A stretch of 36,616 bases of DNA from Candidatus Parcubacteria bacterium (GTDB lineage Bacteria; Patescibacteriota; Minisyncoccia; Phycocordibacterales; Zambryskibacteraceae). The stretch covers positions 84,852 to 121,467 of the forward strand of contig JAIFWN010000001.1 of assembly GCA_019658995.1 (NCBI GenBank). Direction: 5' to 3'. Each line of letters starts with the position of its first letter. Within the stretch, counting starts at the first letter, position 1. Below the pieces are notes generated by a model. The model ran no database searches. It had not been told where the DNA came from and worked only from the letters and a program-made list of their open reading frames with translations. Of the stretch, positions 2,886 through 28,952 are shown piece by piece. Both the position numbers and the translations under genes were made by a program.

Positions 2886-4229
2886 ATGCGGACAAGGTTG
2901 TACGTATGTGCGGCCTTGGCCGCAGTCTTCACTCTGGCGGGTGCGTGCGATAGATCGCCCACCCAGCCGAACATCACCATCAGGATCGGTATCAACAACG
3001 GCAACGACGGCGGTGTCTTAGGCACCGGCGGCGGTAACACTCCCTCCGGCTGCTCGATCAATTTGACCATCAGCGGAGTCGCTGTGGGACCGAGCGGCAG
3101 CTCGACGTGGCAGTTTGGCGAGCGGCGCAACTACACCGGCTCGTTCACTACCAACCCGTTTAGCTGTGCCAAGCCGGAGGACTTCATGTTCACGTCTTCG
3201 GCGCCCGGTATCATCGGGATCGATGCTGTGACAGGTCAGGCCACCGCAGATAACACACCCGGACAGGCCACTCTCTGTTTTGTTTACAGGCCTGATCCTC
3301 AGAACATCCGGGCCTGCACACCGCCGCAGACGGTAGTCGGACCGACCGGCGGTAACCCCTCAATCAGCCCTATCGGTCAAATCTCGACCGGGAACCTCTG
3401 TCAGAGAATCTTCAACGGGGCGATAAACCCGCCTGGAACAGCGGGTACTTGGTCGATTGAAGGTTCAACCTTAGTTACGGTGAATCCGACGACCGGTGCC
3501 GGATCAGTTACGCAGTCAGGCGTGTCCGGATCGGCGACGCTTGTCTTCACAATGACGAACGGCACGCGAATCACAACGCCGCTCACATTCGTGGCTACGG
3601 ACTGTACCGCTCCGCCTCCGACGGCTACCTTTACCTTCAGCTTGCCGAGCATCTGCCTGAGCACGATTGCAGGTTCGCCGACGACAGCGGACTTCACCAT
3701 CACGGTGATAGTGCCCGGGATCAGTAATCCGGGTGTGAACATCACTTCGTCGAATACGTCGGTGGTAACGGTTGTGCCGGTCGGTTCCAGCACTGGTACG
3801 ACTACGACCTGGAGAGTCACTCTGTCCGGACCGGGCAATGCCAATCTCACGGCGTCGGTCCTTGGTATAAGCGGTGTTGGTTCATTGCCCGTGCAGGTGC
3901 TTACTACGGCCTGCCCTGGCGGTGGAAATTCGATCAGTTACTCTCCTCCGGGAGGTACGGTCGGAACCACAGTGCCAAACCCCGGTACACTCACTTCTGT
4001 TTGTATCCTGGGTACCGGTACGATCACCTGCAATCCGTTCTACACATCGAACCATCCGGAGCTCATCGACGTCTTCGGTAACGGAGTGACGCCTATCAAC
4101 GGCTTCAACTTCAGAACCGGCATGACGGCGACGATCACCAGAATAGCGAACACAACCATCGATGTGGAGATCTGCGTGCAGTGGTCTGTGACGGAAGTCA
4201 GCCCAAGATTCTGTCGCAATTGGCGATGA
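2886..4229 (+). CDS. Secreted or lipoprotein-like protein with repeated Ig-like (BIG2-like) domains
   Basis: RBS AAAGGAG upstream of ATG. Signal peptide MRTRLYVCAALAAVFTLAGAC with a near-lipobox. Thr/Ser/Gly-rich beta-type repeats (e.g. SSAPGIIGIDAVTGQATADNTPGQATLCF). Followed by a terminator. Confidence 0.7.
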   Translation: MRTRLYVCAALAAVFTLAGACDRSPTQPNITIRIGINNGNDGGVLGTGGGNTPSGCSINLTISGVAVGPSGSSTWQFGERRNYTGSFTTNPFSCAKPEDFMFTSSAPGIIGIDAVTGQATADNTPGQATLCFVYRPDPQNIRACTPPQTVVGPTGGNPSISPIGQISTGNLCQRIFNGAINPPGTAGTWSIEGSTLVTVNPTTGAGSVTQSGVSGSATLVFTMTNGTRITTPLTFVATDCTAPPPTATFTFSLPSICLSTIAGSPTTADFTITVIVPGISNPGVNITSSNTSVVTVVPVGSSTGTTTTWRVTLSGPGNANLTASVLGISGVGSLPVQVLTTACPGGGNSISYSPPGGTVGTTVPNPGTLTSVCILGTGTITCNPFYTSNHPELIDVFGNGVTPINGFNFRTGMTATITRIANTTIDVEICVQWSVTEVSPRFCRNWR

Positions 4230-21810: not shown

Positions 21811-23515
21811 CATAATCCGTAAATTCAAAAAGAGTCTTGACCACAGCAGCCGGGAAATAAATCCGGAAGACATCTTTATCGACTCTGCCAATCTGCCCGG
21901 CCTTAACCGCGACCGTTTCGAAGGCCGCATGGAGAGGCCGATTGGGGAAAGGACATTCTTCTTCTTCAAAATTTTCCTGGCCATAGTGATTGTATCCCTA
22001 GCGGGTAAGCTCTGGGGTCTCCAGGTCAAAGACGGCAAGGTCTACGCGGAGGTAAGCGAAAACAATCGTCTCGACCGCACCATAGTCTTTGCCGACCGCG
22101 GAGTAATATATGACAGGAACAAACTGCCGCTTGCCGAAAACAGCATAAAGCCCGGGGAGGAGGACTTCGCCGGACGTAAGTATGCTCCCATACAGGGTCT
22201 CGCGGCGGTACTCGGTTATGTGAAGTTTCCGCAGAAGGACTCGAGCGGCCGCTACTACGATGAGTCATACCACGGCCAGGCTGGGGTGGAAAAGATTTAT
22301 GATTATCAGCTTAGCGGCGTGAACGGTTCAAAGTTAATTGAGTCCGATGCCCGGGGCGAGATCACGTCGGAGTCGATAGTCGAGTCTCCAAGGAAGGGAC
22401 TCGATCTTACTCTCGCCATCGATGCCCGCCTGACGGAAGAACTTTATAAAGCCATATCTGCCGCCGCTAAACTGAGAGGATTTACCGGGGGTGCGGCGGT
22501 CATAATGGATACAGAGACCGGAGAGATACTCGCCCTCACAAGCTATCCGGAGTATGACCCGAGTGTAGTAACAGCCGGAACAGATAAGGAAGAAATTAAG
22601 AGACTCCTGAATGATAAAAGTAAGCCCTTCCTCAACCGCGCAGTATCCGGCCTATACACTCCCGGCTCTATTGTGAAGCCGATAGTCGCTCTCGGAGCGC
22701 TTTCCGAAGATGTGATCGATCCCGGCAAGAGCATACTCTCGACCGGCGCGCTCACTCTCCCGAATCCTTATGACCCGGCACATCCTTCGGTCTTTAAGGA
22801 CTGGAAAGCTCACGGCTGGGTCAATATGCGTGAGGCTTTGGCGGTATCGAGCGATGTTTATTTCTACGAAGTCGGAGGCGGATTCCAAAACCAGCCAGGA
22901 CTTGGTATTACCAAGCTCGATAAATATTTCTCACTCTTCGGCATGACGGAGAAGACGGGTATAGATCTTCCCGCCGAAGGCGAAGGATACATTGCCAACC
23001 CGGAGTGGAAGGAGAGAACCTTTCCCGAAGATCCTGTCTGGCGCATCGGCAATACTTATCACACAGCCATAGGACAGTACGGCACGCAGGTCACGCCGGT
23101 AGCGGCGGCACGGTGGACCGCCGCATTGGCCAATGGCGGTACTCTCCTAGTACCCACAGTAGTGAAGGGCGGACACTCTGAAGATAAAAGGGTTTTGAGG
23201 AAAATCGATTTGCCGGAAGGCGACTGGGAGATAGTTCGCGAGGGCATGTACCAGAGTGTCCACGGCGGGGTAGCAAGCGGACTCTCCACTCCGGAGGTAC
23301 AAATTGCCGCTAAGACCGGTACGGCCGAGCTCGGTGTCCATAAGGAGTTTGTAAACTCGTGGGTTACTGGCTTCTTTCCTTACAAAAACCCCCGTTACGC
23401 TTTTGCTTTGATAATGGAGAAGGGTCCGGTAGCAAACTTAGTAGGCGCCACCTCGGTGATGCGTCAGGTTATAGACTGGATGACGCTAAACACTCCGGAG
23501 TATTTGCTTAATTGA
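21803..23515 (+). CDS. mrdA: Penicillin-binding protein 2 (transpeptidase)
   Basis: TM near N-terminus, PBP dimerisation region, TPGSIVKP (SxxK), SSDVYFYEVG (SxD/N), AAKTGTAE (KTG). Start taken at ATG 21803. Confidence 0.93.
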   Translation: MHNIIRKFKKSLDHSSREINPEDIFIDSANLPGLNRDRFEGRMERPIGERTFFFFKIFLAIVIVSLAGKLWGLQVKDGKVYAEVSENNRLDRTIVFADRGVIYDRNKLPLAENSIKPGEEDFAGRKYAPIQGLAAVLGYVKFPQKDSSGRYYDESYHGQAGVEKIYDYQLSGVNGSKLIESDARGEITSESIVESPRKGLDLTLAIDARLTEELYKAISAAAKLRGFTGGAAVIMDTETGEILALTSYPEYDPSVVTAGTDKEEIKRLLNDKSKPFLNRAVSGLYTPGSIVKPIVALGALSEDVIDPGKSILSTGALTLPNPYDPAHPSVFKDWKAHGWVNMREALAVSSDVYFYEVGGGFQNQPGLGITKLDKYFSLFGMTEKTGIDLPAEGEGYIANPEWKERTFPEDPVWRIGNTYHTAIGQYGTQVTPVAAARWTAALANGGTLLVPTVVKGGHSEDKRVLRKIDLPEGDWEIVREGMYQSVHGGVASGLSTPEVQIAAKTGTAELGVHKEFVNSWVTGFFPYKNPRYAFALIMEKGPVANLVGATSVMRQVIDWMTLNTPEYLLN

Positions 23516-23540
23516 CAACTCTGGATTTTTAAGGTAATAA
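23512..23540 (+). promoter_or_regulatory. Predicted promoter overlapping the mrdA stop codon
   Basis: TTGACA (23512-23517), 17 nt, TAATAA (23535-23540). Confidence 0.5.
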
Positions 23541-23626
23541 GAGCTTATTCCGTAGGGGCGAAGATCGTCCTTTCTTGAGAGAAGAACTCTCATGGCATCC
23601 AGCCGGAATGGCTCTTTGGGTGACTT

Positions 23627-24025
23627 ATGGATACTCCTACGAAGTTGTTCCTCGGAATCGTTGCGTTTGTGATTGCTGTAAATCTTGTCGAATGGGTTGT
23701 TCAAAAGGTTCTCAAGGCGAAGCGTGCGGAAGCTTTTGTGGGTCTCTTCATGACTGAGGAAGTAGTCATGGGGAAACTTGCCCGGCTCGCCGCTGAGCTC
23801 GACAGCATCTTCCGTGAACAAATCAGGGTTCAGTCTGAAGGTCTTGATCTTGGCGTCGAAGTCTGGGAGGACATGAATCGCAGAATGCAGGATATCATCT
23901 GCAAAAATAAGGCCGAGTTCTGGCAGGCAGTCGAGCTTGCGCGAACATTTGGTTTTCTCAAAGAAAACCCGATAGCTTCATATAGAGATGCTCTGAAGCC
24001 TCAAAAGAAGGACAGCTCTACCTAA
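23627..24025 (+). CDS. Hypothetical membrane-anchored protein (132 aa)
   Basis: N-terminal TM (LFLGIVAFVIAVNLVEWVV); own promoter and a terminator overlapping the stop codon. Confidence 0.65.
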   Translation: MDTPTKLFLGIVAFVIAVNLVEWVVQKVLKAKRAEAFVGLFMTEEVVMGKLARLAAELDSIFREQIRVQSEGLDLGVEVWEDMNRRMQDIICKNKAEFWQAVELARTFGFLKENPIASYRDALKPQKKDSST

Positions 24026-24044
24026 TAACGGTGGAGCTTTTTTA
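24014..24044 (+). terminator. Intrinsic terminator
   Basis: AGCTCTACC TAATAAC GGTGGAGCT followed by a T-tract. Confidence 0.8.
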
Positions 24045-24103
24045 TTGTGAATAGTTGAGGTTGATAAAGGCAGCTTTTCCTGGTATCATTTTGCCATTAA
24101 TTT

Positions 24104-24565
24104 ATGCACACCGAATACCTGACCCAGAGTAAATTCGATGAGTTCAAGAAGGAGCTCGAGTACTTGAAGACCGAAAAAAGGACCGAAATTGCCAAGAGCC
24201 TCGAGTACGCCAAGTCGCTAGGAGACCTCTCGGAGAACGCTGAGTATCACGAAGCCCGCAACTCCCAGGCTGTGGTCGAAGACCGCATCAGCCACCTGGA
24301 GGCACTTCTCAAGTCCGCTTCAATTGTCTCTTCGCACAGTACAGACACTGTGGCTGTGGGCACTACTGTGACCCTTAAGCGCGAGAGTGACGGCAGCAAA
24401 AAGACTTTCACCATCGTTGGAAGCGAGGAGTCGGACGCAGCCGGCGGCAAGATCTCAGTCCGTTCGCCGCTCGGAAGTGCAGCTATGGGCAAGTCGAAGG
24501 GCGAGAGTTTCTCCTTCGAGACACCATCCGGCACTATGACCTACAAGGTTTTGGATATAGAATAA
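24104..24565 (+). CDS. greA: Transcription elongation factor GreA
   Basis: [58 protein letters not shown] (GreA coiled coil) and C-terminal [20 protein letters not shown]. Confidence 0.96.
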
Positions 24566-24569
24566 ACGC

Positions 24570-25928
24570 GTGGCTTCAATAGACGAAATACGCGAGGCGC
24601 GACTCCAAAAGCTAAAGCTCCTCGAAGAGAAGGGGATAAATCCATACCCCACTAGCGTTTCCCGCGACATGACTCTCGCGGAAGCGGCAGAAAATTTTGA
24701 TACATTATCCAGAGAGAGCAAGTCCATACACTTAGTCGGACGCATACTGGGCATAAGGGGGCAGGGTAAGATCGTATTCTTCGACTTCGACGACGGCTCC
24801 GCCAAATTCCAGGGGCTTTTGAAGAGGGGAGAACCGACCAAAGAGGATGAATTCGACCTCTTTAACGAGGTCTTTGACATCGGTGATTTCATCGAAGTTA
24901 AGGGTACGCTCTTCCTGACCAAACAGAACGAAAAGACGGTGCTAGTCGAGACCCTGCGCATGCTCGCCAAGTCCCTGCGTCCCCTCCCGGAGAAGTGGCA
25001 TGGCCTCCAGGATATCGAGGAGCGCTTCCGCAAGCGCTATCTTGATCTTATCGCGAGCAAGGAAGTTCGTGACCGCTTCAATACGAGATTTAAGATTATA
25101 TCTCTCATCCGCGAATTTTATATCGGGGATGGATACGCTGAGGTTGATCTACCCAACCTCCAGCCACTCGCCGGCGGAGCTACAGCCGCGCCATTCACTA
25201 CCCATCACAATGCTCTGGGCATGGACTTCTTCCTACCGGTGGCGCAGGAGCTTTATCTTAAGGAGCTTTTGGCCGGCGGGATGCCGAAAGTCTTTGAACT
25301 CGGCAAACGCTTCCGTAACGAGGGTATCGATACCACTCACAATCCCGAGTTCACTATGCTCGAAAGCAATGCCGCGTATGAAGATGCCGCCTCTCAGCGC
25401 GATTTTATAGAAAGACTTTTCCGTCATGTGGTACAGGGTATCTTTGGCACTCTGGAGTTTGAATACGGCGGGCACAAAATCAATCTTGAGAAGAAGTTCG
25501 AAGTTATGAAGTTTCCGGACATGAGCGATGATGAATATAAGAAAGAATTGCGCCCGAAACTGATTCAGCCGACCTTCCTCATTGACTATCCGGTAGGTGC
25601 AAATCCGTTTGCCAAGAGGAAAGATGATAATCCGGATCTGATCGACCGCTTCCAGCTCGTGATTGCAGGAGTCGAGCTCGTGAATGCCTTCTCGGAATTG
25701 AACAATCCTATCGACCAGAGAGAAAGATATTTGGAGGAAGATAAGAAGGGCAGGAAGGGGAATAAAGAAATTTCCCCGTCAGACCAGGAATATCTCGAGG
25801 CCATGGAATACGGCATGCCTCCGAACGGCGGTATCGGCATTGGTATTGACCGCCTGGTGATGCTTCTCACCAATGTCGTGAATATCAAGGAAGTCATCCT
25901 TTTCCCAACCCTGAAGCCGAAAAACTAG
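24570..25928 (+). CDS. lysS: Lysyl-tRNA synthetase, class II
   Basis: GTG start. [87 protein letters not shown]. Confidence 0.96.
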
Positions 25929-25929
25929 C

Positions 25930-25959
25930 TTGACATTTGACTAATCTGTGTGATATAAT
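25930..25959 (+). promoter_or_regulatory. Predicted strong promoter
   Basis: TTGACA (25930-25935), 18 nt, TATAAT (25954-25959). Confidence 0.75.
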
Positions 25960-25989
25960 ATAGGAAGAAACCCTCGGCAGGAGGCAGAT

Positions 25990-26325
25990 TTGGAAACATT
26001 CGTTCGGTGGGAGGACATTCGCGAGGCGGCTCAGGATCGACGTAAAAAACTCGGTCTTCGGGAGACAGCCAAGGAAATGTATCTCTCGTACGAGGGGCTG
26101 CAAAGCTTTCTCGACGGACGGAGGTCCCAAGAGTCAACGAGAGCCAATCTCGTAGCTTGGTACCTCTGGCACAAGAACATTCGCGTATCGAATGAAGATG
26201 TCACGATCGCCAAGGGAATTCTCGTGCGGCATGCATTCGAGCTTCGCAAACCGCGAGCCCGAGAACGCCGCATGGGAGCAATCGTTGGCGACCTTTTCCA
26301 CCAATTGCTGATGTTGGACGATTGA
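25990..26325 (+). CDS. XRE-like helix-turn-helix protein
   Basis: TTG start with GGAGG upstream. LGLRETAKEMYLSYEGLQSFLDGRRSQESTRANLVAWYLWH has an HTH-like pattern. Confidence 0.6.
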   Translation: METFVRWEDIREAAQDRRKKLGLRETAKEMYLSYEGLQSFLDGRRSQESTRANLVAWYLWHKNIRVSNEDVTIAKGILVRHAFELRKPRARERRMGAIVGDLFHQLLMLDD

Positions 26326-26349
26326 ACTTTCACAACAGGAGAGTGGAGC

Positions 26350-27012
26350 ATGAGACGCACCGTTATTATGCTTGCGCTCTGTGCTCCGTTTGCACTTGGA
26401 GCGCAGGAGTGGGAACAGGGCTTGTACTATCAGGCCCACTTCGACAAAGTCGGCCGTAGCTTCGAGCAATCTGGCCGGCTGTTGTATACGCAGGGCTACA
26501 TCGGGAAGGGTAAGAAAGGTCTGTGGGATTTCATTTCCGCGGATACCGGATACTTTTCCTTCGCGCTCGGCGGGTACTACACGCCAGCCAAGTACTTCGA
26601 TGCAGGCGTCGCTGTCGGGCTTGAGAACATTCTCACGGAGCAGGAAGCTTTGTCGGACGTCTGGAAGATTTACGCGCGTTATGCGGCGTATGTCCGTGCC
26701 GGTACTCTCAATACGGATAAGATCTTCCTGGCTCTCTACTACGAGAGCGGTACGTCGACTCCGCACTGGGTGCGCAGGTTCGATGCCGGCTGGTATCAGG
26801 CCGAGGCATCCTTCTCGGTCGGGAGATTTCTCTTCGGAGGCTTCTCTCAGACGGAGATCGGCACCGGCCCGCGGGTTCAGATCATGCTCATTGAGCGCGC
26901 TGGGCTGAAATTCCAGGCCTGGGGCTCGCCCAGCATGTACAAACTGGAAGAAAAGAAATGGGTCCATCGAGGCGTAGCTGGCGTGAACCTAATTCTTCAC
27001 AATCCCGAGTAA
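26350..27012 (+). CDS. Secreted hypothetical protein, possible beta-barrel-like
   Basis: RBS AGGAGAG. Signal peptide MRRTVIMLALCAPFALGA|Q. Alternating aromatic/hydrophobic strands (e.g. GYFSFALGGYYTPAKYFDAGVAVGL, RAGLKFQAWGSPSMYKL, GVAGVNLILHN). Own terminator. Confidence 0.65.
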   Translation: MRRTVIMLALCAPFALGAQEWEQGLYYQAHFDKVGRSFEQSGRLLYTQGYIGKGKKGLWDFISADTGYFSFALGGYYTPAKYFDAGVAVGLENILTEQEALSDVWKIYARYAAYVRAGTLNTDKIFLALYYESGTSTPHWVRRFDAGWYQAEASFSVGRFLFGGFSQTEIGTGPRVQIMLIERAGLKFQAWGSPSMYKLEEKKWVHRGVAGVNLILHNPE

Positions 27013-27016
27013 CACA

Positions 27017-27053
27017 GTCCCGTATCCACCGAAAGGTGGTACGGGGCTTTTTC
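27017..27053 (+). terminator. Intrinsic terminator
   Basis: GTCCCGTATCCACC GAAA GGTGGTACGGGGC then TTTTT. Confidence 0.82.
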
Positions 27054-27060
27054 TATGATA

Positions 27061-27088
27061 TTGACAAGTTAATTTAATATGATATGAA
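27061..27088 (+). promoter_or_regulatory. Predicted promoter
   Basis: TTGACA (27061-27066), 16 nt, TATGAA (27083-27088). Confidence 0.45.
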
Positions 27089-27132
27089 TACAAGCAGTCA
27101 GCCGTTCGTTTCAAAATTTCTCGGAGAAAATA

Positions 27133-27627
27133 ATGAAGCCAACTGTCTATGCCGTGATTGGCCTTGTCATGTATGGCCTTCAAAATGCCATCATCGACAT
27201 CAAGCTGAAGGGGTACTCGACCGTCAGCCTTCTCGTCGGGTTCTATCTGATTCTTCTGCCGCTCGGCCTTGGTTTGTTCCTCTATCAGAAGTACGTGGGA
27301 CAGCCACTGGTCATTCCATCCGGAAGTGCGATGATGACGGTGAGCGCTGTTGCGATCATGTTCTTCATTGCAGACTTCTTCTATATTGGTGCTTATACTA
27401 ACGGCGGCAATGCGATTGCGATTACAATCCTTGCCGCTCTGGTACCGGTAGTGGTGGCTCTGGTGAAGTTCGGCGTGATCCGGGAAGTCCCGACACCATA
27501 TCATTTCGGCGGATTTGTTCTTGCTCTTATGTCCGTGATGTTGGTCGCCTACGGCAACTCAAAGAAGCCTATAGAGTTAGGGACAGGAACTGCCATCGCA
27601 GTCGAAGAGCCGACCCTGGCCAAATAA
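27133..27627 (+). CDS. Small DMT/EamA-like membrane transporter-like protein
   Basis: About 5 hydrophobic helices in 164 aa; GNAIAITILAALVPVVVALVKF...FGGFVLALMSVMLVAYG resembles an EamA half-unit. Confidence 0.6.
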   Translation: MKPTVYAVIGLVMYGLQNAIIDIKLKGYSTVSLLVGFYLILLPLGLGLFLYQKYVGQPLVIPSGSAMMTVSAVAIMFFIADFFYIGAYTNGGNAIAITILAALVPVVVALVKFGVIREVPTPYHFGGFVLALMSVMLVAYGNSKKPIELGTGTAIAVEEPTLAK

Positions 27628-27630
27628 TTC

Positions 27631-27667
27631 GCTCCGTACCATCGTAAGGTGGTACGGAGCTTTTTTA
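27631..27667 (+). terminator. Intrinsic terminator
   Basis: GCTCCGTACCA TCGTAAGG TGGTACGGAGC then TTTTTT. Confidence 0.85.
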
Positions 27668-27694
27668 TACATAAAACAAGCTATTATTTTGTCC

Positions 27695-27723
27695 TTGACA
27701 AATAGGATAGATATTGGTATAAT
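27695..27723 (+). promoter_or_regulatory. Consensus sigma70 promoter
   Basis: TTGACA (27695-27700), 17 nt, TATAAT (27718-27723). Confidence 0.85.
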
Positions 27724-27771
27724 AGAAAAGGTTAGGTAGCACATTCACAACTTCTACATAGGAGCTCGGAG

Positions 27772-28368
27772 ATGTCGTCAGTCAAGGCGGTACTCTCGGT
27801 TGCAGCCGGCTTGATCTTCATCTTCGCGTTCTTCCCTTATATCAAGGCGATCGTGAAGAGGCAGACATGCCCGCGCAAGGCAACATGGTTCGTGTGGGCA
27901 CTTGGCGACATCATTATCCTCGCGGGTATGATCGACAAGGGCACCATCAGCGGTCAGCTGGTCGGAGCGGTTATCGGTGCGACTACGACCTTCATCCTCT
28001 CGGTCAAACTCGGTGAACCCGGATGGAATACGAGAGACAGGGTTTGTGTCACGCTGTCGCTTCTCTCAATTGGGCTTTGGCTCTACTTCGGTGAGTCGAA
28101 TCTCGGAATCGGTTTCAGCCTCTTGGCCCTCTGCATTGCGGCCTGGCCGACCTACGTGTCGGCTTGGGAAAAGCCGGAGAATGAGGACAAGAACGCCTGG
28201 ATCTGGTTCAACGTCTCAAGCGTCATCGCTGTGCTTGCGATCCCGCGGATGACATTCGCGGATGCTGCTCCGCCGATCGTCTTCATGGCGATCGACGGAG
28301 TGATGATCTATCTACTCTTCCTCCGTCCTAAGTGGGATAGAGTGAAGACAGAAATACTAGGCTGGTAG
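27772..28368 (+). CDS. Polytopic membrane protein (PQ-loop-like hypothetical)
   Basis: About 6-7 hydrophobic helices; LIFIFAFFPYIKAIVKRQTCPRKATWFVWALGDIIIL. RBS GGAG; consensus promoter and terminator. Confidence 0.65.
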   Translation: MSSVKAVLSVAAGLIFIFAFFPYIKAIVKRQTCPRKATWFVWALGDIIILAGMIDKGTISGQLVGAVIGATTTFILSVKLGEPGWNTRDRVCVTLSLLSIGLWLYFGESNLGIGFSLLALCIAAWPTYVSAWEKPENEDKNAWIWFNVSSVIAVLAIPRMTFADAAPPIVFMAIDGVMIYLLFLRPKWDRVKTEILGW

Positions 28369-28383
28369 AAGTTGTTTCAAACA

Positions 28384-28414
28384 GAAGGCCGTCGCGCAAG
28401 CGCCGGCCTTTTCC
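28384..28414 (+). terminator. Intrinsic terminator
   Basis: AAGGCCGTCGC GCAA GCGCCGGCCTT then TT. Confidence 0.75.
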
Positions 28415-28452
28415 ATACTTTAAGAACAAATGTGGATAACTCGTCTAGTAGT

Positions 28453-28499
28453 GTGGCAGGTAGTGGGATACACTATCTATCAAGTGGGAGAAAGTGGTA
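28453..28499 (+). promoter_or_regulatory. Putative MraZ-binding boxes upstream of mraZ
   Basis: GTGGCA (28453), GTGGGA (28463), GTGGGA (28484), GTGGTA (28494): two pairs with 10-bp periodicity, 21 bp between pairs. Confidence 0.65.
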
Positions 28500-28517: not shown

Positions 28518-28952
28518 ATGTTCATAGGCGAGTACGCACATACCGTCGACGAGAAAAGAAGAATCTCGTTGCCAGCCAAATTCCGCAAGGAGCTTGGATC
28601 TAAAGTAGTAGTCACTCGCGGCTTGGATAATTGTCTTTTCCTCTTTCCTCACAAAGCGTGGCAGGCGATTTCGGAAGAAACCGCCAAGCTCGGACTGATG
28701 CAGCATGATACCAGAGGCTTTACCCGCTTCATGTTCTCCGGGGCTTCCGAGATAGATGTCGACTCAATGGGCCGCATCCTCATCCCGGATTATCTCCGAG
28801 AGTTCGCAGGGGTGAAATCCTCGGCTATCTTCGCCGGAGTCCACAACCGCATCGAGATCTGGAATGAAAAGCGCTGGGAATCTTATAAAAAGAAGATCGA
28901 AGGCGAGGCCGAGGAGATGGCCGAGAAGCTCTCCTCGATAGGTCTCAGATAA
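28518..28952 (+). CDS. mraZ: Transcriptional regulator MraZ
   Basis: MFIGEYAHTVDEKRRISLPAKFRKEL and SEIDVDSMGRILIPDYLREFAGV (paired SpoVT/AbrB-like motifs); followed by rsmH. Confidence 0.97.
   Translation: MFIGEYAHTVDEKRRISLPAKFRKELGSKVVVTRGLDNCLFLFPHKAWQAISEETAKLGLMQHDTRGFTRFMFSGASEIDVDSMGRILIPDYLREFAGVKSSAIFAGVHNRIEIWNEKRWESYKKKIEGEAEEMAEKLSSIGLR

Follow-up and report, generated by a model that had tools for sequence, protein, structure and literature searches.

The interval immediately upstream of mraZ in this Candidatus Parcubacteria bacterium is most probably a gene-turnover hotspot of a Patescibacteria family, filled with moron-like units. According to the scheme favoured here, small self-contained units, each with a strong sigma-70 promoter, one or two genes and a terminator and oriented like mraZ, would fill a gap that lies at the start of the division and cell-wall cluster. 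Since each unit would start and end its own transcript and is placed after the preceding operon and ahead of the promoter and operator of mraZ, its gain, loss or swap should spare the essential neighbours. The window analysed, 36,616 nucleotides long, comes from contig C6; the draft genome (labelled G000) measures 545 kb and is 96% complete, and close relatives by MraZ are Parcubacteria C7867-005 and Zambryskibacteria.

The lysS gene ends with a stop codon at 25928 and mraZ lies at 28518; the block between them fills positions 25929–28428 and comprises three promoter–gene–terminator units with four plus-strand ORFs (Table 1). The order given in the initial annotation, i.e. promoter, HTH gene, secreted protein and terminator, followed by a DMT-like and a PQ-loop-like gene, each between its own promoter and terminator, was recovered with every element in its place; the start codon of the HTH gene has been corrected to TTG. 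The promoters had been described as close to or at consensus, which is exact for the first and third units and fails for the middle one, where TTGACA at 27061-27066, upstream of the EamA-like gene, is followed by a poor -10 element and the best scan score of 9/12 is equalled by 12% of shuffles. The terminators are as strong as had been claimed: one follows each of the three units, and all three are better than every shuffle (10 shuffles per terminator). Similar units had also been noted elsewhere in the window, and the one at 16.2–16.8 kb, on the minus strand, indeed has a good promoter and a terminator, while that at 23.5–24.0 kb has the terminator and a poor -10. Rfam searches returned no known RNA element within the block, and no tRNA adjoins the site.

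Table 1. Features of the lysS–mraZ gap, in window coordinates
Feature	Position	Strand	Remarks
Promoter, unit 1	25930..25959	+	TTGACA-N18-TATAAT; begins 2 nt past the lysS stop codon
HTH protein, 111 aa, TTG start; unit 1, gene 1	25990..26325	+	Small DNA-binding-like regulator
SEC, 220 aa, apparent signal peptide; unit 1, gene 2	26350..27012	+	Beta-rich (by eye)
Terminator T1, unit 1	27016..27052	+	89% identity to T2 over 27 nt
Promoter, unit 2, weak	27061..27088	+	TTGACA-N16-TATGAA, read from the sequence
EamA/DMT-like half transporter, 164 aa; unit 2	27133..27627	+	Pfam EamA match
Terminator T2, unit 2	27631..27666	+	Near-copy of T1
Promoter, unit 3	27695..27723	+	TTGACA-N17-TATAAT with TG extension
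5' arm ACAACTTCTAC of the 5'UTR/3'UTR inverted repeat	27747..27757	+	Just upstream of the Shine-Dalgarno sequence
PQ-loop-fold membrane protein, 198 aa; unit 3	27772..28368	+	AlphaFold model and PDB matches
3' arm GTAGAAGTTGT	28365..28375	+	Reaches over the PQ stop codon; 11 bp perfectly complementary to 27747-27757
Terminator T3, unit 3	28386..28413	+	Last signal ahead of the mraZ promoter region
GTGG-repeat region before mraZ, probable MraZ operator	about 28432..28498	+	Right boundary of the site; repeats also in relatives' intervals

Evidence for turnover comes from the interval before mraZ as read in 45 genomes, a comparison of lysS–mraZ intervals that the initial annotation had proposed and that revealed empty sites. 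Every one of the nine genomes in the genus has a filled gap, and no two of them carry the same gene set; the survey is limited by a contig end in G002, where lysS is not seen, and by ORF calls that are weak in some distant genomes. The contents run from HTH-SEC/EamA/PQ in G000 to PQ in G001, a secreted protein in G002, SEC2 (a plus-strand secreted protein) in G003, HTH-EamA2 in G004, a 99 aa ORF followed by a PQ-like gene in G005, a 110 aa ORF in G006, a 115 aa ORF followed by SEC in G007, and SEC/PQ in G008. In the sister genus gyrB takes the place of lysS, and eight genomes have a bare gap of 112–212 nt without any ORF; units are present at the site in others (G015, G016, G018, G022 and G028). 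The hotspot persists despite the switch of its left neighbour from lysS to gyrB. Short empty lysS–mraZ gaps of 134–346 nt occur in the more distant G010, G031, G033, G035 and G039. The GTGG-repeat region is kept before mraZ in those intervals of relatives that were inspected, and the relatives' units at the site likewise have promoters and terminators that beat shuffles. The site combines conserved flanking genes and differing accessory content with empty alternatives, two hallmarks of a hotspot, and the original description as a modular accessory locus is supported: empty sites exist, the contents vary in every congener and each unit has its own signals. Two other intervals, mrdA–greA and greA–lysS, were compared by eye. 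The one between mrdA and greA (23515-24104) is a second variable gap, which is filled in G000, G001, G005 and G007 and measures about 56–70 nt in G003, G004, G006 and G008. The gyrB–mraZ gap of G026 (locus L225) holds an 89-aa ORF that by eye resembles a RelE/ParE-type toxin; toxin genes, too, may thus turn up there.

A limited set of families recurs at the site, as judged by profile searches; frequencies refer to 61 genomes (PQ, EamA) or 247 genomes (SEC, HTH). PQ is found there in G000, G001, G008, G022 and, remotely, G005, out of a family present in 21/61 genomes; SEC1 in G000, G007, G008 and G018, the four with a copy at the site out of the 9/247 genomes that have it; SEC2 in G003, G016, G011 and G012; and TM175 in G015, G016, G018 and G022. 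EamA occurs at the site in G000 and G028 (the family in 4/61 genomes), and HTH is convincing in 2/247 genomes, G000 and G004, where it is the first gene at the site in both, followed by SEC in the former and by the non-homologous EamA2 gene in the latter. In some relatives the PQ family is multi-copy at unrelated loci, with four copies in G008 and five in G040. These distributions bear directly on the suggestion that the four proteins of the block act jointly as one novel system for the envelope or for transport, a reading that is hardly credible: the genes are adjacent, share a strand and specify secreted and membrane products, but the four families meet in G000 alone, no co-occurrence was seen outside it, their frequencies are low and unequal, their promoters and terminators are separate, and similar strong-promoter units are scattered across the genome. 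Conservation of all four genes at the site, which would have spoken for an ordinary housekeeping locus, was looked for within the family and the order and does not obtain there.

It is less easy to set aside an ancestral multi-gene envelope cluster beside mraZ that was lost piecemeal, with small proteins diverging so fast that orthologues now look unrelated, although we consider this unlikely. In its favour, families recur at the site across several genera, the SEC1 families are tied together by profiles only (hhalign E 1.8e-6 for G000/G021 against G007/G018, with the SEC of G008 matching the G007/G018 family at 1.6e-6), and SEC followed by PQ is an order common to G000 and its relative G008, which suggests some inherited layout. 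Against this stands the phylogeny of PQ. G008 is the closest relative of G000 by lysS (81%) and greA (84%), its PQ in the mraZ gap shares 36% identity with that of G000, and the nearest PQ (65%) belongs to G021, in another genus and at another locus. The site copies were monophyletic in 0% of 200 bootstraps, and well-supported branches force at least three changes; since the copies do not form one clade, repeated placement is favoured. A piecemeal loss would also have to accommodate one HTH family, convincing in so few genomes, at the head of non-homologous genes, as well as multiple clean empty sites. Turnover at a hotspot remains the preferred reading. For SEC, EamA and PQ, neither codon usage nor GC stands out from the rest of the genome, with the codon usage of HTH slightly off, so nothing points to a recent arrival from a distant source. 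A foreign composition of the block was ruled out for SEC, EamA and PQ on the same grounds of codon usage.

Two kinds of repeat may be traces of how the units move. T1 and T2 are near-copies 613 nt apart, which places direct repeats on either side of the EamA unit, and the genome has no further copy at fewer than 2 mismatches. A genome-wide terminator repeat family was considered and ruled out, as the T1/T2 sequence has just two close copies. In G022 two near-identical terminators (L083:3129-3167 and 3860-3898; 39 nt at 90%) close its adjacent units before mraZ. The second repeat is the pair of complementary UTR arms that flank the PQ gene, which are seen in five congeners (G000, G001, G004, G005 and G008). 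They occur solely in the unit nearest to mraZ, where the ORFs that they enclose differ: PQ, a distant PQ-like gene and the non-homologous EamA2. The complement between 5' and 3' arms is longer than in most shuffles; the automatic count for the PQ unit of G000 is 7, counted from after the stop codon, as compared to the 11 bp read directly. The predicted duplex has an energy of -11 to -16 kcal/mol, and the predicted pairing probability is about 1.0 in G000, up to 0.99 in G004 and 0.13–0.35 in the other three. Arms from different genomes pair as well as those from the same genome, and there is accordingly little covariation to prove a role of the RNA. A genome-wide 5' motif was likewise ruled out, since ACAACTTCT..GGAG is nearly absent outside the mraZ site. 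The arms could be either a resident frame for ORF replacement or co-travellers of membrane-protein cargo, and the 11-bp repeat around non-homologous ORFs suggests ORF exchange in a conserved transcript frame, pairing of the 5' and 3' ends of the mRNA, or both.

This raises a further alternative, compatible with a hotspot, in which ORFs are swapped within a conserved frame and the 11-bp repeat acts as an exchange handle or as a translation-controlling 5'–3' mRNA helix. A frame of this kind would consist of 5' arm, ORF, 3' arm and terminator. The recurrence of the arms around PQ and EamA2 in five congeners, a complement exceeding most shuffles, the strong predicted pairing in G000 and G004 and the near absence of the 5' motif elsewhere in the genomes all point in this direction; however, the four remaining congeners lack the arms, as do the PQ units of other genera, pairing probability is low in three of the five, and own pairs do no better than cross pairs. 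We consider the proposal unlikely. Still smaller is the chance of a general transposase-free cassette system in Patescibacteria, by which surface and transport ORFs would be exchanged in conserved transcript frames (promoter, 5' arm, ORF, complementary 3' arm and terminator), or whole units via repeated terminators, at fixed tolerated sites.

The moron-like architecture of the block and a weak match of the HTH homologue of G004 to a PHROG transcriptional regulator (E 5.8e-5) might be taken to indicate the remnant of a prophage or integrative element. This is highly improbable: SEC and HTH have no relatives in phage records and PQ, SEC and EamA none in viral contigs, the proteins of the window are without PHROG match, and the site lacks a tRNA. 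By eye, no recombination-site-like sequence is common to the units, and inspection of the window ORFs revealed no integrase. For the hotspot itself, the route of exchange would most likely be homologous recombination after DNA uptake, via the conserved flanks or the repeated terminators.

The units of G000 would act independently of each other, and the membrane or cell surface is the most likely place. The HTH protein is likely to bind DNA, judging by resemblance, and is a candidate regulator of its own unit; it is 32% identical over 74 aa to the first gene product of the G004 unit at the site. SEC is apparently exported, given the signal peptide seen by eye; its structure model has a pLDDT of 28.9, and a match to a BCSC_C fragment, obtained as a test for a beta-barrel, is weak; a barrel would be unexpected in an organism regarded as having no outer membrane. 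The EamA-like protein covers nearly the whole Pfam EamA domain at E 1.6e-5 and 25.6 bits, against a cut-off of 28.2, and a homologue with 66% identity is encoded immediately before mraZ in G028, which belongs to another genus. With one DMT domain it probably acts as a dimer, by analogy with the DMT superfamily. The PQ protein was modelled from four sequences with AlphaFold (pLDDT 82.4, pTM 0.76 for the best of five models, the other four having pLDDT 55–63) as seven long helices and a short C-terminal one. Foldseek relates this model to cystinosin, the KDEL receptor and SWEET with probabilities of 0.75–1.0, a query TM of about 0.5–0.64 and E-values above 0.05. PQ had no PQ-loop/SWEET Pfam match, a Pfam scan of three PQ members gave no family, and the protein is therefore labelled as having a PQ-loop-like fold rather than filed as a member. 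The model indicates a PQ-loop fold, and the protein is probably a small-solute transporter; its predicted fold is like that of the PQ-loop/SWEET/cystinosin superfamily, from which it differs in being very divergent and without a Pfam family match. PADLOC found no anti-phage defence match.

The promoters of the block belong to a small class. Exact matches to TTGACA-N16..19-TATAAT number 13 in 545 kb, as compared to 0 for the reversed pattern used as control, and two of the 13 lie inside the 2.6-kb lysS–mraZ gap, where 0.06 are expected, about 30 times the mean density. Apart from those that serve tmRNA, an RRM protein and the region ahead of 23S rRNA, the remaining ones mostly belong to short accessory ORFs. 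Several of these have signal peptides, lipoprotein boxes or transmembrane helices, and they are followed by terminators at operon borders. The same style of strong promoters on short ORFs is found in G008 and partly in G001. As exact promoters are mostly on short ORFs throughout the genome, the lysS–mraZ block exemplifies a type of accessory unit that is found genome-wide. One perfect promoter, G000:C13:33929-33958 at locus L189, directly precedes the tmRNA gene (Rfam tmRNA at L189:1603-2007) and is kept in most genomes of the genus as TTGACAAT.GT.CC...GGTGTATAAT. A 447-aa lipoprotein at 2886-4229 reads MRTRLYVCAALAAVFTLAGACDRSPTQP..., and similar CxDSTAP-like boxes are found in lipoproteins of several strong-promoter units of G000 and G008; presumably these boxes resemble those of Gemmatimonadota lipoproteins, a possible hint of donor or host.

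Although Patescibacteria are regarded as streamlined organisms with few genes, perfect promoters in this genome are mostly spent on small lineage-specific secreted or membrane proteins. Promoters of the same class serve tmRNA and the 23S region, and the accessory genes are placed where swapping should be harmless. The organism is probably a symbiont. If exchange does take place, host-interaction genes of uncultured lineages could be sought in the mraZ gap, and the repeated terminators and paired UTR arms would make a recombination mechanism testable; should the cassette system hold, streamlined symbionts would gain a rapidly renewed surface.

Phage morons are laid out as promoter, gene and terminator, and the units upstream of mraZ likewise have their own promoter and terminator around one or a few genes, the EamA promoter being weak. 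The ant morons of P22-like phages comprise ten types in sixteen genomes at one tolerated position (PMC2629481), and the mraZ units resemble them as self-contained extra units at one such position; unlike the ant morons they lie in a cellular chromosome beside a division cluster, and no phage relationship was found. Since they do not reside in a phage or prophage, they are called moron-like rather than morons. In icaR of Staphylococcus aureus the 3'UTR holds the complement of a 5'UTR segment close to the ribosome-binding site (PMC3868564), a complementarity shared by the PQ unit, where the pairing is predicted and, unlike in icaR, the 5' arm is located just upstream of the Shine-Dalgarno sequence and the 3' arm over the stop codon. 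Chromosomal hotspots of integration and turnover between core genes are established in bacteria, and those without mobile elements are over-represented in transformable species (PMC5635113; Nat Commun 2017). The mraZ gap shares with them the fixed core neighbours, the many differing accessory genes, the empty alternatives and the turnover, and differs in that it belongs to a streamlined 0.55-Mb Patescibacteria genome, holds a tiny cargo of 1–4 genes drawn repeatedly from few families, and emerges from a comparison of species rather than strains.
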